Shown: piece by piece, positions 3,707 through 41,970 of the stretch
How positions within the stretch are numbered: the first letter of the stretch is position 1
Layout of the letters: every line of letters starts with the position of its first letter
Assembly (NCBI GenBank): GCA_018714165.1
Contig: DVNU01000042.1
Coordinates: 1 to 50,715, forward strand
Origin: Candidatus Coproplasma excrementipullorum
GTDB taxonomy: Bacteria > Bacillota > Clostridia > Christensenellales > Borkfalkiaceae
DNA length: 50,715 bases
Reading direction: 5' to 3'
Translations under genes and position numbers: made by a program
The notes under the pieces: generated by a model
The model's input: the letters and a program-made list of their open reading frames with translations, nothing else
Databases searched by the model: none
Told to the model about the DNA's origin: nothing

Positions 3707-5704
3707 TTAGACCGCGAAAGCCGGTGCGAGCGTACGACTTTCATTAACATTACCGCTATAGGCATTCCCGTCTGGGAGGACCGAGCAGAAAAGGCCGCTG
3801 TTAAGGTAATAAGGCGACCGCAACCACCACGTCGCAGCCTCTGACAAGGCTGTGTGCTGATACTTGATTTTGGAGTTACCGTTAGCGAAGTAGTCATACT
3901 GCTCCTGATAATTTTGCTCGTAACTGTTGGCACAATCCCGTGTCCCCTGCACTTCATATTCAGCCAGCAACCACAGGTAGTCCACTGTAGCCGTCACATT
4001 TGCCGCAACGTTTGTTTCTCCACCCACATTATCCGTGTACTTGGTAACCGACTTCATGACCGCACGCAAATCTGCGGGCAGCGCCGCCATCAGTGTATTT
4101 GTCACGGGGCTCGTTGCGCAGGTGCTTGTGGGATTATTGCCGTTGACACCGGATGATTTGGCGGAGCCATAATTTTCGGGAGCAACGTTTGTACTGCCGA
4201 GGATATCATACCTCGCATCGCACGCCGCCCAACCTCCGTAGTTGAAGTTGCCCCAGTGGTTGACGTTGAAATACTTTCCTCCAGTAGCATGGCCGACTGA
4301 ATAGCTGCTGTCAACCAATCCCACGCTCGTGCCGCTGGTTTGGGCTGTTTTGAAACCTTGGAAGTGTATTCTGTGAGTTCCCTCACGGCTCGAGTTATGG
4401 TTAAAGCCGAGAATGTACACCCACAGCGTAGTGTTCATATTGAGCGTGCCTACAGTGCCGTTTATTGTCACCGAGTGCGTATCACCAACCGACCATAGAG
4501 ATTCGCCGAGGTCCATATCGGAAACTGCCCTGATCACCTCCCACGTGTTCTCATTGAGCTCGGTAGACACTATAGCAACGCTCACACTTATCGTGCAGCT
4601 TGAGGCATTGTAGTTCTGCCCTGCGCTGAGCGAAATATTGATTGTCGTGGTTCCGGTACCCACGCCCGTTACGGTAACCGTGGAGCCCGTTATCGAAACC
4701 TGCGCAACTTCTGTATTCTCACTCTGAGCCGTAATACTGCCGTCGCCCGTGTGTGTTATCGTAGCCATGTTGGTAAGATCACTGATGCCGATAATACTCA
4801 TCGTGTCGGGGTCGACTGAAATGGAACTGTTTGCCCGCTCTATCTCCCACGACTTGGCTATCGTACCCTTGTAGTCGCCGGTGCCGTTGATCATCATTGT
4901 GTAAGTCCCGGCATTTGTGCCGGTATTGCCGCTCACAATGTAATCTTTGTTCGCCTCCAGTGTTAAGCCGCCTAAAACGACACTCTCGATCGTCTGGGTC
5001 TTAAGTGAGCCGTCATAGGTCTGTGTAGCGCCGAGAGTAACCACCGCAGTGGATATATCTACGGCATCATTCACCCATACCGGCGCGCCTTGGCCGCTTG
5101 ATTTGAGTATCTGCCCCTCCATTCCTGCCGTAACAGGAGCATAGAAGGCGGGAGATGTGTTGGCGTTGCCGTTGAGCTTTGTCGCCTTCACTATGCCGAA
5201 GGAAGCATCCGTGGCTACAGCGGGATCCGTCACGATCCAGTTTGTACCGTCATACACAAAATCAACCACCGCACCCGCCTGCCATAACTCGGCCAGCGAT
5301 TTAGACGAGTCGTCGGCCTTAATGGTTTTGGCCCCCGTGTTGTTGACATTGAGCGTAGGAGAAGCTGCCGTATTCGCGTATGTAAATTTTACGGCGATTC
5401 GCTTGCCTGACGCGAGCGTAAAGTTCGAGCAGGTCACTGCCTTTGCCGCTGTAGCCGCAGCCGTGGAGCACGTGCCGTAAAACGAAGACGCGCCAGTCCT
5501 CTTTATATAGCCGTCTACAGCAGCCGACAGAGCGGCAAATTTATCGGCCAAGGCGCGCCCGGTATCCTCCGATAAGAAGTCCTTGCTGTTATAGTCCCCT
5601 TCCGTGACCTCGGCAGGCGTGGTGCCGTTAAAGCGCGCAATCACTACGTCGATCTGAGCACATATCTCCTGACCTGCACCATCGGTCATAAATCGTTTTG
5701 ACAT
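3707..5704 (-). CDS. Tail fibre/adhesin with Ig-like segment and C-terminal DUF6273/C-lectin-like domain
   Basis: N-terminal phage fibre sequence, internal Ig-like repeats, C-terminal WWLRSPYYLNSGLFCSVLPDGNAYSG...APAFAV. Confidence 0.75.
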   Translation of the reverse strand: MSKRFMTDGAGQEICAQIDVVIARFNGTTPAEVTEGDYNSKDFLSEDTGRALADKFAALSAAVDGYIKRTGASSFYGTCSTAAATAAKAVTCSNFTLASGKRIAVKFTYANTAASPTLNVNNTGAKTIKADDSSKSLAELWQAGAVVDFVYDGTNWIVTDPAVATDASFGIVKATKLNGNANTSPAFYAPVTAGMEGQILKSSGQGAPVWVNDAVDISTAVVTLGATQTYDGSLKTQTIESVVLGGLTLEANKDYIVSGNTGTNAGTYTMMINGTGDYKGTIAKSWEIERANSSISVDPDTMSIIGISDLTNMATITHTGDGSITAQSENTEVAQVSITGSTVTVTGVGTGTTTINISLSAGQNYNASSCTISVSVAIVSTELNENTWEVIRAVSDMDLGESLWSVGDTHSVTINGTVGTLNMNTTLWVYILGFNHNSSREGTHRIHFQGFKTAQTSGTSVGLVDSSYSVGHATGGKYFNVNHWGNFNYGGWAACDARYDILGSTNVAPENYGSAKSSGVNGNNPTSTCATSPVTNTLMAALPADLRAVMKSVTKYTDNVGGETNVAANVTATVDYLWLLAEYEVQGTRDCANSYEQNYQEQYDYFANGNSKIKYQHTALSEAATWWLRSPYYLNSGLFCSVLPDGNAYSGNVNESRTLAPAFAV

Positions 5705-15490: not shown

Positions 15491-16000
15491 TTAAAGGTAT
15501 GCCGCAATATCGGAATAGTAATCCTTGCCCCGTATGCGACAAATGGAATTGAGCTTGTCTATGCAGAGCAATTCCTCGCCATTTACATACAGCTGATAGC
15601 GGGTAACCGCCAGCGTGATTTCATTCTCGCTGGCGCTGCCCACTTCGAGTGAGATGCCGGGCACAACTTTTGGTATGCCTGTGATGAAGGCCTTGCACCC
15701 CTCGGCCGTAGCCGTGCCATCTGCGCTTATATTGTTCTGAACAAAGCGACATTCATAGCTATGCCTTTGCGGGGTACTCATTGCGATGAGCTGGCTGTCG
15801 GCGCCGATCTTGGTCATAGATGCCTCCATGGCCTCCACAAGGCCGACAAGCGGAAGTTCGGTAGTTCCCATCGCGTTGATCTCGGCCGTTGCAAACGTTA
15901 TTTCAGGCAATGTTACGGCTACATTTTTTGCAACAAGAACGTTATCGCAATACACCGCATCTGCAAGTATGGCGTTTTTCTGATCTACCCAGTTTGACAT
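15491..16000 (-). CDS. Major tail tube protein
   Basis: FII-like ORF following sheath. Confidence 0.85.
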   Translation of the reverse strand: MSNWVDQKNAILADAVYCDNVLVAKNVAVTLPEITFATAEINAMGTTELPLVGLVEAMEASMTKIGADSQLIAMSTPQRHSYECRFVQNNISADGTATAEGCKAFITGIPKVVPGISLEVGSASENEITLAVTRYQLYVNGEELLCIDKLNSICRIRGKDYYSDIAAYL

Positions 16001-17478
16001 TATGCCTCACCTCCTTCTTCGTCTCCATACAGAACGGCAAAGCCGGCATCCGTATAACTTACGGTGACGGTAGCCGCCTTGAGAGGAGGCGTAATCGTTG
16101 CAGAGATGTGCCACTCAAAGTTGGCGAGCAGCACGTCGGACGCCTCGCTCGATTCCCCGTCTGAAAGTTCTACCGTGGGCGTACCGATGAGCGCGCCGAT
16201 AGATACGAGAGCATCAAGTTTTTCCTGTTCGCGGTTGAGAATTGTGTCACGGAGTGCAAGCGTCATGGGCTGATCTATGGTGGTACCCCACTCACGCTGG
16301 AACTCATTCGTAATATAGAACAGCATGAGTATATTCGTATCGAATATCTCGCGCGCCATATAGTCGCCGCCGTTGACGTACGCGGCTGTATGGTCGCCCC
16401 ACACGCGCCAGTTGCCCTCCCAGTAGATTGCCGTTGTTATACCTGCCGCCGTCAGCTTATTGGCGTCGGGACGGTCATAGCCGACAAGTTTTGAGGTGTC
16501 GCTTATGTACAGCCCCGATGCAGGGATAGATTTGTTTGCGCAAGTCTCGAAGGGAATATTGTTGTTGTTTATGTCACAGCGTATCTTTTCAACCAACGCA
16601 AGCGTGGAGAGATGATATACCGTAGCACTGCCGCTCTTTACCTTTGGCCAGAATACCTTGGAATATCCGGAAGTGTATTCGTTATCTTCCTTCCACTTAA
16701 TTGCCGCTGCGATATTGGCAACATTAGTTGTGGGAATATCTGCAAACACGAATGCGCTCCAGTGGTCGTTTATCCCCTGCGATGCCTCTACGAGCGCATC
16801 GTACACCATCGGATCTTCCGACCAGCCGGGGGCTGCCAGATAGGTAGGTATCGCATCATAATCCTGGTACACCTGTCTGAGTGATGCAATGCCCGTTGTG
16901 AGACCGTCGCTGTCCGTGCCGCCGATAACCGTCTCGGCTGTGATTTCTTCAAAGTTTACGCGCTTGAATGAGGCCTGTATCTCCTCCATTGGCGTCTGTC
17001 CGATGTCGGTCACGGTAAGCACACCCGTTGTTGAGTTGTAGCTTATAGTGTAATCAACACCCTGCACCTTTCCATCGAGAGCGAAGGTGGCAAGTATAAT
17101 ATCCGTTTCGGCGAGAGTGGCCTTGCGGTTTGCGAAGATAAGATCTTCGGTCACCGCCTCACTTGCGTGCACGTCGGGGTCAAGCACGTTTATAACATAA
17201 ATGGGGCCGATATTGCCGGCCTCGTTGTTGAAGTGCGCCTCGACTGCCTCACAGAGCGTATACTTGCTCCACATTGCCGAATTGGCAAAATGTCCAAGTT
17301 TTTCGCGCGCTTCGTTCAAATTGTAGATTTTAATAGGCGTATTGACCGCACTCCTGTAGTCGGTCAGCAAGTTCACCGGCGCAGTGCCGAAATATACCGG
17401 CGTAACAGACGCCCGCGATACGCTCTGCACGACGTCGTTGCCGATCTTGCCGTATACGCCATATTTGTATTCAGCCAT
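16000..17478 (-). CDS. Tail sheath protein
   Basis: 492 aa; DYISYNSTTGVLTVT-like region and IYWEGNWRVWGDHTAAY sheath motif. Confidence 0.92.
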   Translation of the reverse strand: MAEYKYGVYGKIGNDVVQSVSRASVTPVYFGTAPVNLLTDYRSAVNTPIKIYNLNEAREKLGHFANSAMWSKYTLCEAVEAHFNNEAGNIGPIYVINVLDPDVHASEAVTEDLIFANRKATLAETDIILATFALDGKVQGVDYTISYNSTTGVLTVTDIGQTPMEEIQASFKRVNFEEITAETVIGGTDSDGLTTGIASLRQVYQDYDAIPTYLAAPGWSEDPMVYDALVEASQGINDHWSAFVFADIPTTNVANIAAAIKWKEDNEYTSGYSKVFWPKVKSGSATVYHLSTLALVEKIRCDINNNNIPFETCANKSIPASGLYISDTSKLVGYDRPDANKLTAAGITTAIYWEGNWRVWGDHTAAYVNGGDYMAREIFDTNILMLFYITNEFQREWGTTIDQPMTLALRDTILNREQEKLDALVSIGALIGTPTVELSDGESSEASDVLLANFEWHISATITPPLKAATVTVSYTDAGFAVLYGDEEGGEA

Positions 17479-23403: not shown

Positions 23404-25311
23404 CTACCAGTCGTCACCCTCCAAGAGCCGGTTGCGCCGCGTCCTCGAGGGGCGCGATATCCGCCGCTCTGTAACTTGTGGTTTTTTATCTGTCAATCCC
23501 TTCAATCTGCGCTCGATAGCGTCGAGGTCGGGGTTTACAAGACGAAACGCTGCGTTTGCGTAATTCCTGCAATCGAGGGCTTCGTTTCGCTGATGGCCGG
23601 GCAGCTTTTCCCACGTCCAACGGTCGCCGCGCGCCGTGCGCGACAGAACCAACTTTTCAGAGAGCAGCCCTGCAAAGTAATTACTGTCGTAGCCTCTGTC
23701 CCCGCGGGGAAAGTGGGCATAGTTTGCGCCCGGCTCCTGAACCTTCAGGCCGGACATAATTTTACTTTTGCCCGCATCCACTCCGATCGTGTACAGATAG
23801 CAAAAAATGCGTTTGTTGTCCTTGAGGGGCACCTTGGTCGGTACATTAACAAATGGTATGTCTGGACCGCCCTTACCTTTGATTGCAAAAACGCGCTTTT
23901 GCATTCTTGCGCGGCAGGCCGCGTACACTTCCTGAGTGTAGTGGCCGCCAGAGTCGACGCACGTCATGGAAATTCGCAATCCCTTGCCGGATTTGAACTT
24001 ATATACATGATCGATCACTTCGTCCAGCTTAGCCCAGACCTCGGGATTGTCGGGCTTGCCCATTATGAAACCCTTGACAATGCCCCACGATTCATTATAG
24101 TGGCCGTAACCTACCACCTCATACTCAAGACGGTTATCCTGAGTATCCACCCCACACGTCAACGCGAGAACGCCTTCGGGGAGTTCGGCATCGTACTCCT
24201 CGCGGCGCGCCATAATACTGTCCTCGTCCTCCAGATCACCGCGATCCTCCCACAGTTCACCGAGCAACGTATTGTATACTACTTTTAAAAGTTCGGGGTC
24301 CTTTCGCGCCTCGAGAAATCTCTGCACTATTGTGGCCCAAGTGATCCACGGGCTGGCAAAAGCCGTCAGCCAAAAGGAGCGCACGCCACGCGAGTACGCA
24401 TCGGGATTGTCGGCTATCCATTTTGCAGGCTGACGCCGCATAGTATCTTCAGTCGACAAGCAGCCACAGTCGGGGCAGAGCCAGTGAAGAGACGTTATCG
24501 TGTAAACTTTTTTGCGGTTTATAGTGTTCGTGGTAAATTCAAACTTGATCTGGTCGAAGCGTATTTCGTGCCACTCGCCGCAATGTGGGCATTGGTGACA
24601 CCACCGCTCCTGCGTCCCGCGATAAAACGAAGCCTCGATATTACTCCTCCCCTTAATCGTGGGCGTTGAGGTCTCCACAGATTTTTTATTGTAGAATGTA
24701 GTCTGTCTGGCCTTGGCCAGTTCCCACGGGTCGCCCTCTGTCCCGGCGCTCACTGCCCAGCGGTCGCGTTCATCGCCAAAAATATAGCGCGCCGGCGTGG
24801 ATGCGAGCGCGCTTGCCGAATTTGAACCGGTTATGGTGAGCATACCTCCGGGAAAGGACTTTTGCAGTATCGTGTTGCCGCTGTCCCGCGTTTTGACTTC
24901 CGACACTTTTTCTTTAAGCCGCTTGCTATCCCTTATCATGGGTGCTATCCTGAGCCGCGAGAATTTTCGCGCGTCCTCGAGCGTTGGAAGTATTAGCATG
25001 GTGCTGGCCGGATCCTGATCGATTGCGTAAGCAATACAATTCAAAAGAAATTCCGACTTGCCGACCTGCGAGGCTGCCACCATTACAATGTTGCTTATCC
25101 TTGGATCGTTGAACGCCTCCATAGGCTCTTTAAGATAGGGTGTTCGGGATGTTCTCCACGGGCCGGCTTCAGCCGAGCTTTCCGGCGACAGCCTGCGGTA
25201 CTTCTCCGCCCACTCTGTTACGGTTAAATCTTCAGGCGGGGCAAAGTTCTTGACGGCGGGTGCGATTGCCGCATTGAGCTTACTCGTCGCCGTCAGCTTC
25301 GGTTTTTTCAA
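23404..25311 (-). CDS. Terminase large subunit (GpA family)
   Basis: VAASQVGKSEFLLNCIAYAIDQDP; start near 25311 (TTG) uncertain because it overlaps terS. Confidence 0.93.
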   Translation of the reverse strand: MKKPKLTATSKLNAAIAPAVKNFAPPEDLTVTEWAEKYRRLSPESSAEAGPWRTSRTPYLKEPMEAFNDPRISNIVMVAASQVGKSEFLLNCIAYAIDQDPASTMLILPTLEDARKFSRLRIAPMIRDSKRLKEKVSEVKTRDSGNTILQKSFPGGMLTITGSNSASALASTPARYIFGDERDRWAVSAGTEGDPWELAKARQTTFYNKKSVETSTPTIKGRSNIEASFYRGTQERWCHQCPHCGEWHEIRFDQIKFEFTTNTINRKKVYTITSLHWLCPDCGCLSTEDTMRRQPAKWIADNPDAYSRGVRSFWLTAFASPWITWATIVQRFLEARKDPELLKVVYNTLLGELWEDRGDLEDEDSIMARREEYDAELPEGVLALTCGVDTQDNRLEYEVVGYGHYNESWGIVKGFIMGKPDNPEVWAKLDEVIDHVYKFKSGKGLRISMTCVDSGGHYTQEVYAACRARMQKRVFAIKGKGGPDIPFVNVPTKVPLKDNKRIFCYLYTIGVDAGKSKIMSGLKVQEPGANYAHFPRGDRGYDSNYFAGLLSEKLVLSRTARGDRWTWEKLPGHQRNEALDCRNYANAAFRLVNPDLDAIERRLKGLTDKKPQVTERRISRPSRTRRNRLLEGDDW

Positions 25312-25909
25312 AATCCTGCCAACCCTGACGATCGCGCACACGCTTTTTATATGCGGCCGGATCGTATTTATAGTTTGCGAGCTCGTGCAGAATGACGTAG
25401 ACCTCCTGCTTGATGCGCTCCGAAATTTCCGACGGTACCGTGATTGCCGCAAGGTCTATTGCCAACCTTCCCGGCAACGCAAGCAACATTCCGCGGATAG
25501 TGAATACAAGATCTGTAGTCATTGCCTCCACGTCCTCGCTGCGATGCATCAACCCCTGAAGTTCGTCCCGCTCCAATGCGAGCATGGCCGCCTTCGCCTC
25601 CTTGATTTCCGCCTCCGCTTTTATTTTTCTGCTCTCGTTGTCCGAGTCCTCGCGGCTCGCACCCTTTTGACTGAGCTTGTCCTGTAAATATGAAATATAG
25701 CGGCGCACTGTAGGCATAAGGTCATACCCGCGCTTGCGCCCCACCGTCTCTGTAACCAATATACCGTCTTGCGTCAGCTGCTGTATTCTTCGGACAGTCA
25801 ACCCGAATAAAACAGCGACCGCCTTTGTCTCTACAAGCGTTTTTTTGACGGCCGTTCCAGCTCCGTCCGCCATTGCCATCCTCCTTTTTTGCGTAACGAA
25901 ACGCCCCAA
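25280..25909 (-). CDS. Terminase small subunit (Nu1-like)
   Basis: HTH LFGLTVRRIQQLTQDGILV upstream of TerL. Confidence 0.82.
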   Translation of the reverse strand: MGRFVTQKRRMAMADGAGTAVKKTLVETKAVAVLFGLTVRRIQQLTQDGILVTETVGRKRGYDLMPTVRRYISYLQDKLSQKGASREDSDNESRKIKAEAEIKEAKAAMLALERDELQGLMHRSEDVEAMTTDLVFTIRGMLLALPGRLAIDLAAITVPSEISERIKQEVYVILHELANYKYDPAAYKKRVRDRQGWQDFEKTEADGDE

Positions 25910-27672: not shown

Positions 27673-28131
27673 TTACCCCTTATACACTGCTGCGAGAGCT
27701 AAAAGTGCGCGTCCGTGCATTTTAAAGACACGGTTCATGTATGTATCCATCTCAAGCTCGTAGTCCTCTCTGCCGCCATACATGCCCTTGCATACCTCCC
27801 GCCAGCCGCTGCCATAAAAGTAACGAAGAGAAATCAAAAGCCGTTCTGCAGGCTTAAGACAGTCTAACAAGGGCTCAAGTTCGGCCTCGTCGCGGGTGAT
27901 GTCCTCCTGCTTTTTGTTGACGCGCTCCTCAAGCTGCATCTTGACTATTACGCGGTTGGCAACTTTATCGGTATTTGGTCCGCTCCCCTTACCTGTCGAG
28001 GATAGCCCAGAGCTGCGTATGTCACCATACTTCTGTCTGGCAAAATTCAACTCTATTCTCAGAGCCTCGCAGTCCTCCACCATCTTTTTGTGCCTGTTTA
28101 ACCGCTGTTTGATCGCTCCTGTATCTATCAT
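27673..28131 (-). CDS. Late transcription regulator (DUF1492/ArpU/RinA-like)
   Basis: ERLLISLRYFYGSGWREVCKGMYGGREDYELEMDTYMNRVFKMHGRALLALA. Confidence 0.75.
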   Translation of the reverse strand: MIDTGAIKQRLNRHKKMVEDCEALRIELNFARQKYGDIRSSGLSSTGKGSGPNTDKVANRVIVKMQLEERVNKKQEDITRDEAELEPLLDCLKPAERLLISLRYFYGSGWREVCKGMYGGREDYELEMDTYMNRVFKMHGRALLALAAVYKG

Positions 28132-28141
28132 GCCGCCTCCG

Positions 28142-29535
28142 CTATTCTTTGATTAGTTTTGAAACCTCCCTACGGCTCAGCTCACTTCCGTTCCTTATGC
28201 AGACGACGTCGTCCTTCCCGGTTACGAGCATATAGCGCTTTACGATGACGTCAACATACTTTGGATCGAGTTCCATAGTGTAGCACACTCTTTCAGCCTG
28301 TTCGCAAGCAATGAGCGTGGAGCCACTTCCCCCGAATGGATCGTAGACAATCTCTCCGCGCCTGCTACTGTTTTTTATCAGTCTAAGCAACAGTGCTACC
28401 GGCTTCATTGTGGGATGCAGCGCACTTCTTACCGGCTTGTTTTCATGAATTACCGTTGTGGGCTCATCCGTGCTGTGTAGTTTTGTTAGGAGGTCCACCA
28501 ACTCCTGTTTTTTCAATTTGGAGAAATTGACTGCCGCGTCCTCAAACACAGTTGATTGTGTTCTGTCCTTTGTAAAATAATGCGCACCCTCTTTCCAACC
28601 GTATAAGCAGGGCTCGTGTTGCCATTGATAGTCTTGCCGCCCCATCACGAATGTGTTTTTTACCCAGATAAGGCATTGCCTTACATGCAGGCCCACTTCT
28701 TCGCATATCTCTCGAAAAGTTAAACCGTTCCCGTCCGGGTGGAATATGTAAAACGCGCCGCCAGAGACAAGGTGCTCTTTTGCGTTTGTGAATGCGTTCA
28801 AAAGTAATTTTTTAAAGGCGTTTTCGCTGAGGTCGTCATTTGTTATCTTAAGTTTTTGCTCTGTTCCGCCCTCATAATCGACGTTATACGGCGGATCTGT
28901 TAAGAGGAGGTGTACCCCCCCCCATGCAATAAGTTATCCACATTCTCCCGGTTGGTGCTATCACCACAAAATACTTTGTGACGGCCACCCAACACCCACA
29001 TATCGCCAAGCCGTGATACAGGTTCGGGCGGCGGTGTAACTTCATCATCGAGGCCCGTCAACCCATCCAAGGCGTCACTCAACGCATCGGCAATTTCACT
29101 GTATTCCGCAAAGGTATATCCGGTCATATCCATCGAGATATCCGAGGCCATAATCTCCTCAAATATTCCAGCCAGCTTTTGCATGTCGGGGTCGGCAAGT
29201 TCTGCGATTCTATTGTCAGCCACGAGGTCGGCTAACTCCTCAGCATCGGACATATAATTCTGATAATCGACCGGCGCCTCGGTCAATCCTTCCAGCTGGG
29301 CTGCTGCAAGCCTGCCATGGCCGCGTACAATAAGGCCCGATCTGGTGCTTACAGTGATTGGATTGCGCCAGCCCGCGCCCCTGATAATTGCACCCAAGCG
29401 CTTGAGTTGCTCTTCTGGATGCATATTCGGATTTTTAGGGTTCGGCCGTAATTCCCCGAGCGGCACGATTGCATCGTGCGCACAGTAAACTGGGATATTG
29501 TCAGCATACCCCTTGACTTCATTCTTTCCCTTCAT
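28142..29535 (-). CDS. ParB-like nuclease/DNA N4/N6 methyltransferase, split by G9 tract (predicted OFF in this assembly)
   Basis: ParB domain ELRPNPKNPNMHPEEQLKRLGAIIRGAGWRNPI...GHGRLAAA and CGDST in ORF 28900..29535; LLLTDPPYNVDYEGG...DPFGGSGSTLIACE in next frame to 28142. Confidence 0.9.
28915..28923. repeat. Homopolymer tract C9 (G9 on coding strand) inside methyltransferase gene
   Basis: Direct count; frame change occurs exactly here. Confidence 0.92.
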
Positions 29536-38466: not shown

Positions 38467-38685
38467 CTATAAAATACTGTAATGAGCCTGCTGACCCCCC
38501 CCCGGTACAACGTTTGCCTTCTTGCGGCTGCGAGGCAATTCCTTGGGGTTTATTCCACCCGCGGATAGAACGGCAATGATATCCTCCCGCGTGCATCCGT
38601 TGAGCTCGGCAAGGATCGTAACCTGCTTACCCTTGTTTTTTGCGGTGCGGTAGTCGCGTACAATCTCTTCAGGTGACATCTCCAT
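38467..38685 (-). CDS. HTH-like early protein interrupted by G9 tract
   Basis: EIVRDYRTAKNKGKQVTILAELNGCTREDIIAVLSAGGI; C-terminus read through G9. Confidence 0.6.
   Translation of the reverse strand: MEMSPEEIVRDYRTAKNKGKQVTILAELNGCTREDIIAVLSAGGINPKELPRSRKKANVVPGGGQQAHYSIL
38495..38503. repeat. Homopolymer tract C9 (G9 on coding strand)
   Basis: Direct count. Confidence 0.9.
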
Positions 38686-40164: not shown

Positions 40165-40563
40165 ATGGAGGAAATTATGAACCGCATTCGTGAACTGCGA
40201 AAAGCCGCAGGCTATACCCAAGAAAAGCTTGCGTCTGTGCTATGTGTATCTCAAGCAAATTTATCAGGCTGGGAACTTAACAAGTGGCAGCCCGATCAGG
40301 ATGCACTTAATAAAATGGCTGACCTCTTCAACGTTTCCATTGACTATCTCCTCGGTAGAACAGAAAACGCCCCCGACCCCCTCTCCGGATGGACGGAAGA
40401 GGAAAAGGCCGCGGGCGTCGGAAGGCATCCCACCTACCTATCGGAAGACGAGATCAACTGGCTGGAGCTGCGAAGTGAAATTTTAAGGGTATACGGCGAA
40501 AAGAACCTTTCTGCCGTAGTCACCATGCTTGAGGCTTGGGTTAATAAAAATCAACAAACATAA
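40165..40563 (+). CDS. CI-like XRE repressor
   Basis: RELRKAAGYTQEKLASVLCVSQANLSGWELNKWQPD HTH; divergent from Cro. Confidence 0.85.
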   Translation: MEEIMNRIRELRKAAGYTQEKLASVLCVSQANLSGWELNKWQPDQDALNKMADLFNVSIDYLLGRTENAPDPLSGWTEEEKAAGVGRHPTYLSEDEINWLELRSEILRVYGEKNLSAVVTMLEAWVNKNQQT

Positions 40564-40740
40564 AATATGCGCTAAATAGAAATCATCTATATTGATGGCT
40601 CCTAAAATATTGCGCTCATTTGGCACATTTTTTTATTCAAGTTCCCCCACTATTTTTATTATAAATTGACTTATATTTGTCATATTTTTTCTGCTATAAT
40701 ACCCCAAAACAAATAAATGTTTTACAAAGGAGTAAAAATT

Positions 40741-41970
40741 ATGGCAGGAAAACTTTCAGACGAGCTTATAAACATCTCTACCATGCTTATGGTCGCACAA
40801 GAACGCGGAGACATCCTTCGCGCTACCAATGCACTCAATGAGGCTATATTGGCTATAATTGAAACCGAAGAGAGAACTTGCGGGCTCGCCACGGAAAAGA
40901 AAAAGGCGTTATCGGCAATCATTAAATTTTCAAAAGGTGAAGTTATGAAAATGTCGAAAACGTTTAAAAAAGAATTTATTGCAAACGGCTGCGTGGCGCA
41001 TATCATTAAGCGTCCGAGCGGTAAAAGCGGCTGGTACTACCAGATAAGATATCGGCGCAACGGCTATGATATATCTGTGGCCGATAAAAATCTGGATACC
41101 GTAAAACAAAAATTTATAGAGAAAACTCTTCACTTGGAAGATCTCCGTGAAGTCGTCAAAACAAAAGTAACGCTCGCGTCAGCATTAAGCGATTGGTTAG
41201 CATGGAAAAAGGGCAAGGTCGACATCCGTACATGGAAAAATGCTGCAAGCAATGCAAAAAGATATTTGCCCGAAGATTTGACGTCGAAACCTATTAAAGA
41301 CATAAAGGTAACCGATGTAGATCGCTTTATGCGTTCTCTTGAAGAGAGACCGCGAATTTATGAGGAAGTACGCAGTATACTAAATCAAACTTTTAAATTT
41401 GCTATCGCTAATGGTGTTGTTGAGCGCAACCCTGTTCAGCTCACAAAATTTAAGCAAGCCGAACGACAGCCAAGAGAGGCACTTAACGTGGATCAGATTA
41501 AGGCTTTCCTTATAAGAGTTCAACAGCCACAGTTTGATCCCATACGGCAATTTGCGCTTGCAATGTATTTCTTCGGACTGCGGCCATGCGAAATCGATAA
41601 GGAGCTCCGTGTTGAGGGCAACTTCATTATTGCCCGAAACCGAAAGAGGAAACGAGGTAAAATTGAATTTAAAAAGATTCCCATCCACCCTCTTGCCAGA
41701 AAATATATTGATTTCAATAAATCGCTCTGCTGTGGCTTTGCAAGTAAAGCGCAATGCAAATACCTGAAGTTGGTGCTTGGTGGAACTCATACGGCTTATA
41801 GCCTCCGCCATACCTTTTCGACTCTTTGCCAGAAGAGCGTAAGGCCAGATATTGTCGATATTTGGATGGGCGACAGCCCTGAACGGCTTGTGGGCAGATT
41901 TTATACCCATTTTGACGACGACTTTATGTACAAACAAATGGAAAAAGTGGAATTTATAACGAGTGATTAA
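40741..41970 (+). CDS. int: Tyrosine recombinase/integrase
   Basis: TAYSLRHTFSTLCQKSVRPDIVDIWMGDSPERLVGRFYTH catalytic region; start may be 40717. Confidence 0.93.
   Translation: MAGKLSDELINISTMLMVAQERGDILRATNALNEAILAIIETEERTCGLATEKKKALSAIIKFSKGEVMKMSKTFKKEFIANGCVAHIIKRPSGKSGWYYQIRYRRNGYDISVADKNLDTVKQKFIEKTLHLEDLREVVKTKVTLASALSDWLAWKKGKVDIRTWKNAASNAKRYLPEDLTSKPIKDIKVTDVDRFMRSLEERPRIYEEVRSILNQTFKFAIANGVVERNPVQLTKFKQAERQPREALNVDQIKAFLIRVQQPQFDPIRQFALAMYFFGLRPCEIDKELRVEGNFIIARNRKRKRGKIEFKKIPIHPLARKYIDFNKSLCCGFASKAQCKYLKLVLGGTHTAYSLRHTFSTLCQKSVRPDIVDIWMGDSPERLVGRFYTHFDDDFMYKQMEKVEFITSD

Follow-up and report, generated by a model that had tools for sequence, protein, structure and literature searches.

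A poly-G tract beside the catalytic motif of a prophage ParB-N6/N4 methylase gene: a probable phase-variable switch captured OFF

When a run of nine G residues divides a phage DNA methylase gene into two reading frames, has the gene been broken or has it been switched off? This question is raised by a gene in the window, the whole stretch of 50,715 nucleotides that was analysed here. The original prediction was that the gene is a phase-variable phage methylase captured OFF. From the analyses described below, we consider it highly probable that the G9 run is a slipped-strand simple-sequence contingency switch on a prophage ParB-N6/N4 methylase, and that the assembled copy is in the OFF state.

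The split methylase gene and its prophage

The G9 run was found exactly where it had been predicted, on the minus strand between a ParB-like half and an N6/N4 methyltransferase half (Table 1). The best start of the upstream ORF was the ATG at 29535, which is preceded by an AAGGAGG ribosome-binding site. From there the frame enters the run and terminates 7 codons from where the run starts, giving 211 amino acids that end ...FCGDSTNRENVDNLLHGGGYTSS-stop. At G9, the length in the assembly, the catalytic half is out of frame. A run of G10 or G7 joins the ParB part to the part with DPPY and FxGxG, as had been claimed; the joined frame reads ...VHLLLTDPPYNV...DPFGGSGSTLIACE... and is open through the stop at 28142. 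The gene therefore carries within its ORF a repeat whose length sets the frame, one of the marks of a phase-variable (SSR) DNA methyltransferase. The further claim that the gene is not otherwise decayed also held. The catalytic half has 256 open codons in the downstream frame with both motifs intact, and 23 of the 23 invariant residues tested were present (one more invariant column lies upstream of the tested half).

Table 1. Positions of the tract, the two halves of the methylase gene and the phage genes identified in the window.
Feature	Position	Strand	Evidence
G9 homopolymer, proposed slipped-strand ON/OFF switch	28915..28923	-	sequence; G7-G16 in relatives at this site
ParB-like N-terminal half, 211 aa at G9	28900..29535	-	phrog_498 E=3e-51; ParB-like phrog_620 E=1e-31
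N6_N4 methyltransferase catalytic half	28142..28912	-	Pfam PF01555 E=4.7e-30; phrog_498 E=4.5e-89
DPPY catalytic motif (IV), 17 nt past tract	28886..28897	-	sequence
DPFGGSG motif (I), S-adenosylmethionine binding	28322..28342	-	sequence
Phage late transcriptional regulator-like gene, directly downstream of methylase	27673..28131	-	phrog_36 E=8e-15
Terminase small subunit	25280..25909	-	phrog_57 E=3e-33
Terminase large subunit	23404..25452	-	phrog_15 E=2e-245
Tail sheath protein (contractile tail)	16000..17478	-	phrog_23 E=1e-45
Phage repressor-like regulator	40165..40563	+	phrog_8 E=2e-24
Integrase	40717..41970	+	phrog_1 E=8e-29

Both halves matched the same family, PHROG 498. The N half scored 16 bits (E=0.013) against Pfam ParB_N (PF02195), below the gathering cut-off of 26.3, and two relatives (L138 and L542) passed this cut-off. 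We use the term ParB-like because the N half fell below the Pfam cut-off while its matches to PHROG ParB models were strong. In the catalytic frame there was no start codon between G9 and DPPY, the first being a TTG 32 codons after DPPY. Because the catalytic frame has no start between the run and DPPY, the product of the OFF allele would be the ParB-like stub alone.

Homopolymers of G or C reach 6 nt at just two places in the window, each a G9 run of the minus strand, and lengths of 6 to 8 are absent. Overlapping G8 matches numbered 4, against 0.83 expected in shuffles. Since 3 of 100 shuffles also reached 4, run length alone is only mildly unusual; the improbable part is the position. The second G9 run (38495-38503, minus strand) lies within a small gene with no assigned function, whose frame passes the run and meets a TAG soon after, before a C-terminal half that is continuous in a relative (L535). 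We considered this run as a second methylase switch and rejected it, as the protein is small and all three frames past the run are open for at most about 35 codons.

Judged by its gene content, which includes an integrase, a repressor, the small and large terminase subunits and a tail sheath protein, the window is a prophage, in which a few genes separate the methylase from the terminase downstream. A putative tail-fibre-like protein with a C-terminal domain of the WWLRSP type is encoded at 3707-5704 (minus strand). The host genome is a draft of 1.72 Mb in 91 contigs with thirteen G8+ runs, six of which reach at least G9; the window prophage accounts for two of the six. A second prophage contig of the same host (C57) carries an intact, tract-free methylase relative of 420 residues adjoining its own terminase. 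On that contig (L542, 657-1723), a PAPS-reductase-like phage gene is divided between two frames by a G8 run and is out of frame; read from the DNA, this run is likely a second OFF switch in the same bacterium.

Recurrence of the tract in related methylases

A protein search of viral contigs with the N half found nothing, and homologues were therefore gathered with the catalytic half. This similarity-based set comprised 86 relatives, picked solely on the catalytic half, in which the DNA ahead of DPPY was then read. A run of G8-G11 within 60 nt before DPPY was present in 6 of the 86 (G8, G8, G9, G9, G11 and G11), so that the tract is a minority trait in this set; tract-free relatives had sequence like LM-D-G-K-K-A-D-L without a run. 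Two of the six carriers were in frame (L038, G8; L087, G9) and four, the window included, were out of frame. Across 782 kb of homologue loci we counted 11 coding-strand G8+ runs, six inside the 60 nt before DPPY and five in the remaining 777 kb or so (binomial p ~4e-11). The junction was intact in 71 and broken in 1 of the 72 testable tract-free homologues, and intact in 2 and broken in 4 of those with the tract (Fisher p 5e-5).

These counts bear on whether the gene is a decaying prophage pseudogene, its frame lost by a one-way mutation at a hot spot. Prophages do decay, the host draft is fragmentary and the gene is out of frame here. Nevertheless, the catalytic half is open over its whole length and keeps each tested catalytic residue, and tract-free homologues are almost never broken at the junction. 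Further, tract-bearing relatives are often in frame, and the downstream half is under purifying selection between OFF alleles (see below). We therefore regard decay as highly improbable.

Tract-bearing methylases were also sought by targeted scans. With the pattern G7+ N8-38 GAYCCNCCNTAY, a G7+ run ahead of GAYCCNCCNTAY was found in at least 120 viral stretches. Among the 120 matches listed, 99 stayed open for 120 codons or more beyond DPPY, and the majority read GDST...L-GGG-.AD...TDPPYNV. The C7 control pattern matched 85 stretches, of which few were methylase-like; 13 of the 80 analysed had such an open frame. A scan of one genome per species matched the genomes of 28 species, with runs of G8-G16. 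These species span Bacillota, Bacteroidota, Actinomycetota, Pseudomonadota, a deltaproteobacterium, Verrucomicrobia, Spirochaetes and one archaeal draft genome; two of the matches (L350 and L351) have a short downstream frame, and prophage context was checked for some only. The S. equinus match was identical to the annotated phage Javan213. In a phylum-wide sample of 399 genomes the pattern occurred in the window alone, and the trait is therefore rare in random genomes. A looser pattern within the window's own family matched 6 of 398 genomes, and its reversed control matched 1.

The targeted scans yielded 86 non-redundant ParB-type methylases with G8-G15, of which 45 were ON, 25 OFF+1 and 16 OFF+2; most tract-bearing sequences are metagenome consensus. 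The split between ON, OFF+1 and OFF+2 was 7/9/10 in the genome set, near thirds, and 38/16/6 in the viral set, in which in-frame lengths were commoner. Thus, the homopolymer recurs in independent relatives, in frame and in both wrong frames. The original prediction had suggested examining tract length in homologues, and the presence of G7-G16 at the same codon position supports its view of a phase-variable phage methylase captured OFF.

The same recurrence speaks to the possibility of an assembly or sequencing artefact that hides a true, in-frame length. Homopolymers invite errors, and the draft to which the window belongs is split into 91 contigs. However, independent assemblies repeatedly show out-of-frame lengths of both kinds, among them the assemblies of the isolates Limosilactobacillus urinaemulieris and Anaerocaecibacter muris, for which the record titles state several-hundred-fold coverage. 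An artefact is thus a highly improbable explanation, and an error in the window copy alone would leave the general finding intact.

In a FastTree tree of 195 rows of catalytic domains, a sample partly selected for the tract, tract presence required at least 22 changes, and at least 14 when branches of support below 90 were collapsed. Shuffling the labels on this collapsed tree raised the number to at least 38. Because at least 14 changes compare with at least 38 after shuffling, the tract is clustered, but phage methylases have repeatedly acquired or lost it.

Several candidates for same-species length variants were rejected. S. pyogenes Javan447, Javan492 and Javan476 (split methylase) have no G-run at the junction and carry unrelated lesions, and in the Lactobacillus prophage Lj771 the junction likewise has no G-run and the lesion is unrelated. 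In four S. pyogenes prophages (L545-L548), the catalytic half of the tract-free relative contains a stop in three and is intact in the fourth; these stops have no connection to a homopolymer.

Tract length, selection and structure

Homologues without a homopolymer at this place had been named as grounds for abandoning the idea of a switch; instead, near-identical alleles vary in tract length. The most identical pair was an IMG/VR contig with G11 (L139) and the isolate Anaerocaecibacter muris with G15 (L355), which are 98.6% identical, with 18 substitutions and no other indel over 1,270 nt; both alleles are OFF. A second pair, L131 (G10, ON) and L161 (G9, OFF), is 92.3% identical, again with other indels absent. 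In two Limosilactobacillus species (L354 and L361), the run is G8 and ON in one and G9 and OFF in the other, at 85% identity. Thus, among relatives of the window gene, closely similar alleles differ in tract length, and ON and OFF states are both present.

Fixed-length recoding does not predict such differences. If the G-run were a programmed site of ribosomal frameshifting or of slippage by RNA polymerase, its length would stay fixed and both products would be intended. Homopolymers can act as recoding sites in phages, and the OFF gene is intact apart from its frame. Recoding, however, needs one fixed offset, whereas the 86 methylases were divided among the correct frame and two wrong ones, with run lengths up to 15, and near-identical alleles were 1 or 4 Gs apart. 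We therefore judge it very unlikely that recoding explains the tract; leaky expression from OFF alleles is possible.

Although both alleles of the L139/L355 pair are out of frame, the dN/dS of their catalytic half was ~0.03 (from rough counts). The currently untranslated catalytic half of OFF alleles is thus kept under selection, though an earlier in-frame period could also account for the substitutions. Such a low value between OFF alleles is what reversible switching would predict.

An AlphaFold model of the in-frame relative L138, built from an alignment of viral-contig loci only, had a mean pLDDT of 86, and ~97 around the tract turn. A helix (164-171) is followed by the tract glycines (172-174), a strand (176-181) and DPPY (182-185), and the best structural match was CcrM (6pbd). 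The model suggests that, in a turn which tolerates glycine, a stretch of GGG codons could lengthen while the enzyme stays unharmed, and any shift of frame at this point would cost the protein its entire catalytic domain.

The tight turn in the model, and the one or two glycines that tract-free relatives often have in it, also suit a simpler view, in which the run is a by-product of a glycine-rich turn written in GC-rich codons, with no selection for slippage. The distribution of lengths does not favour this view. In the L131 and L195 families the run lengths are bimodal, nearly all being below 5 or 9-10; a single G6 is interrupted. L456, a close relative within the L195 family, is in frame with an interrupted run (GGGGGGAAG). 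Further, the frame is lost in about half of the tract-bearing genes, a cost that should purge a useless run. A by-product thus seems unlikely to us.

The proposed switch and known systems

The contingency switch that we favour would work as follows. Replication slippage, the presumed mutational step, would add or remove a single G or a few at a time. Every third length would give a fusion of the ParB and catalytic domains (ON); at the other lengths, a stop lying a few codons from the run would end translation and leave a ParB-like stub of ~211 residues, with no usable start for a separate intact catalytic half (OFF). The run would be tolerated because it encodes glycines in the turn between the helix and the strand entering DPPY. 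As read from the DNA, OFF should mean no enzyme activity, and switching should be reversible within a clone. In the ON state, the phage would be protected from restriction enzymes that methylation blocks; in the OFF state, it would escape methylation-dependent restriction and, as a lysogen, the cost of rewriting host methylation. The role of the switch is thus likely to be bet-hedging of phage DNA methylation, as counter-restriction.

Phase variation is commonly seen as something that bacteria do and that phages have to cope with. A recurrent, position-specific G-run in methylases suggests that phages may bet-hedge their own DNA modification. If so, one lysogen should release particles in two methylation states, and the switch could help to explain patchy phage-genome methylation, variable restriction sensitivity and broken-looking methylase genes. 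Annotation can easily mistake a gene split by such a tract for a pseudogene or for two genes.

Elsewhere in the phage loci studied, G8+ runs often fell in DNA-modification genes, as picked by eye among 32 candidates. Phage cytosine-5 methylases contained G8-G15 runs (L133 6687, L151 5316, L153 2860, L242 3006 and 3241, L357 3017, L029 2106); those of L133, L151 and L153 lie beside the PCQ catalytic loop, and several runs directly follow it. A 143 kb phage contig (L153) has at least four G8/G9 runs in 4 kb (378, 2179, 2860 and 4247), which fall in PAPS-reductase-like and cytosine-methylase genes and are possible switches. In L102 and L103, a G8/G9 run ~665-671 nt before DPPY, shortly ahead of the methylase start, lies in an apparent hairpin and might cause expression to vary. 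We treat class-wide enrichment of G8+ runs in phage DNA-modification genes as a lead. On balance, we lean towards the broader view that phages as a group phase-vary DNA-modification genes by poly-G (ParB-methylases, cytosine-5 methylases and PAPS-reductase-like genes), with repeated origins in phages of many bacterial phyla. If this is true, phage methylomes would be bet-hedged much like bacterial surface antigens.

In the SSR-type phasevarions of Haemophilus, Neisseria, Moraxella and Helicobacter (Type III Mod), slippage of a repeat within the ORF toggles a methyltransferase, and H. pylori restriction-modification genes contain homopolymer tracts (PMC12003011, PMC13076061). Those phasevarions are bacterial restriction-modification or orphan genes, whereas the window gene is phage-borne and has its run at the catalytic motif; its N-terminus is ParB-like, not of the Mod type, and its identified neighbours are phage genes, not a partner res gene, which places it outside the Type III Mod group. 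A phage-borne gene switched by slippage is also known, namely neuO of prophage CUS-3, with the heptanucleotide AAGACTC (PMC13001214). Like the window gene, neuO is phage-borne and repeat-switched, but its product NeuO is a capsule O-acetyltransferase, not a DNA-modification enzyme, and its heptamer is in the 5' region. Thus, repeat-switched bacterial methylases and one phage-borne repeat switch are known, and the phage class reported here was not found described in the literature searched. Among the open-licence papers searched, none was found to describe a phage methylase switched by poly-G, a scope that excludes preprints and makes this absence weak evidence; a survey of gut-phage methylation mentions neither phase variation nor homopolymer, poly-G or frameshift.

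With regard to the enzyme itself, CcrM and other beta-class N6-adenine methyltransferases are alike in fold and motif order; CcrM has no ParB domain. The phage orphan methylases of PHROG 498, with N6_N4_Mtase and ParB domains (for example in Streptococcus phages EJ-1 and Javan213), belong to the same family and in those phages also lie near the terminase. Most members of this type are tract-free with an intact junction, unlike the window gene, whereas Javan213, from S. equinus, carries an in-frame G8 at the same site.
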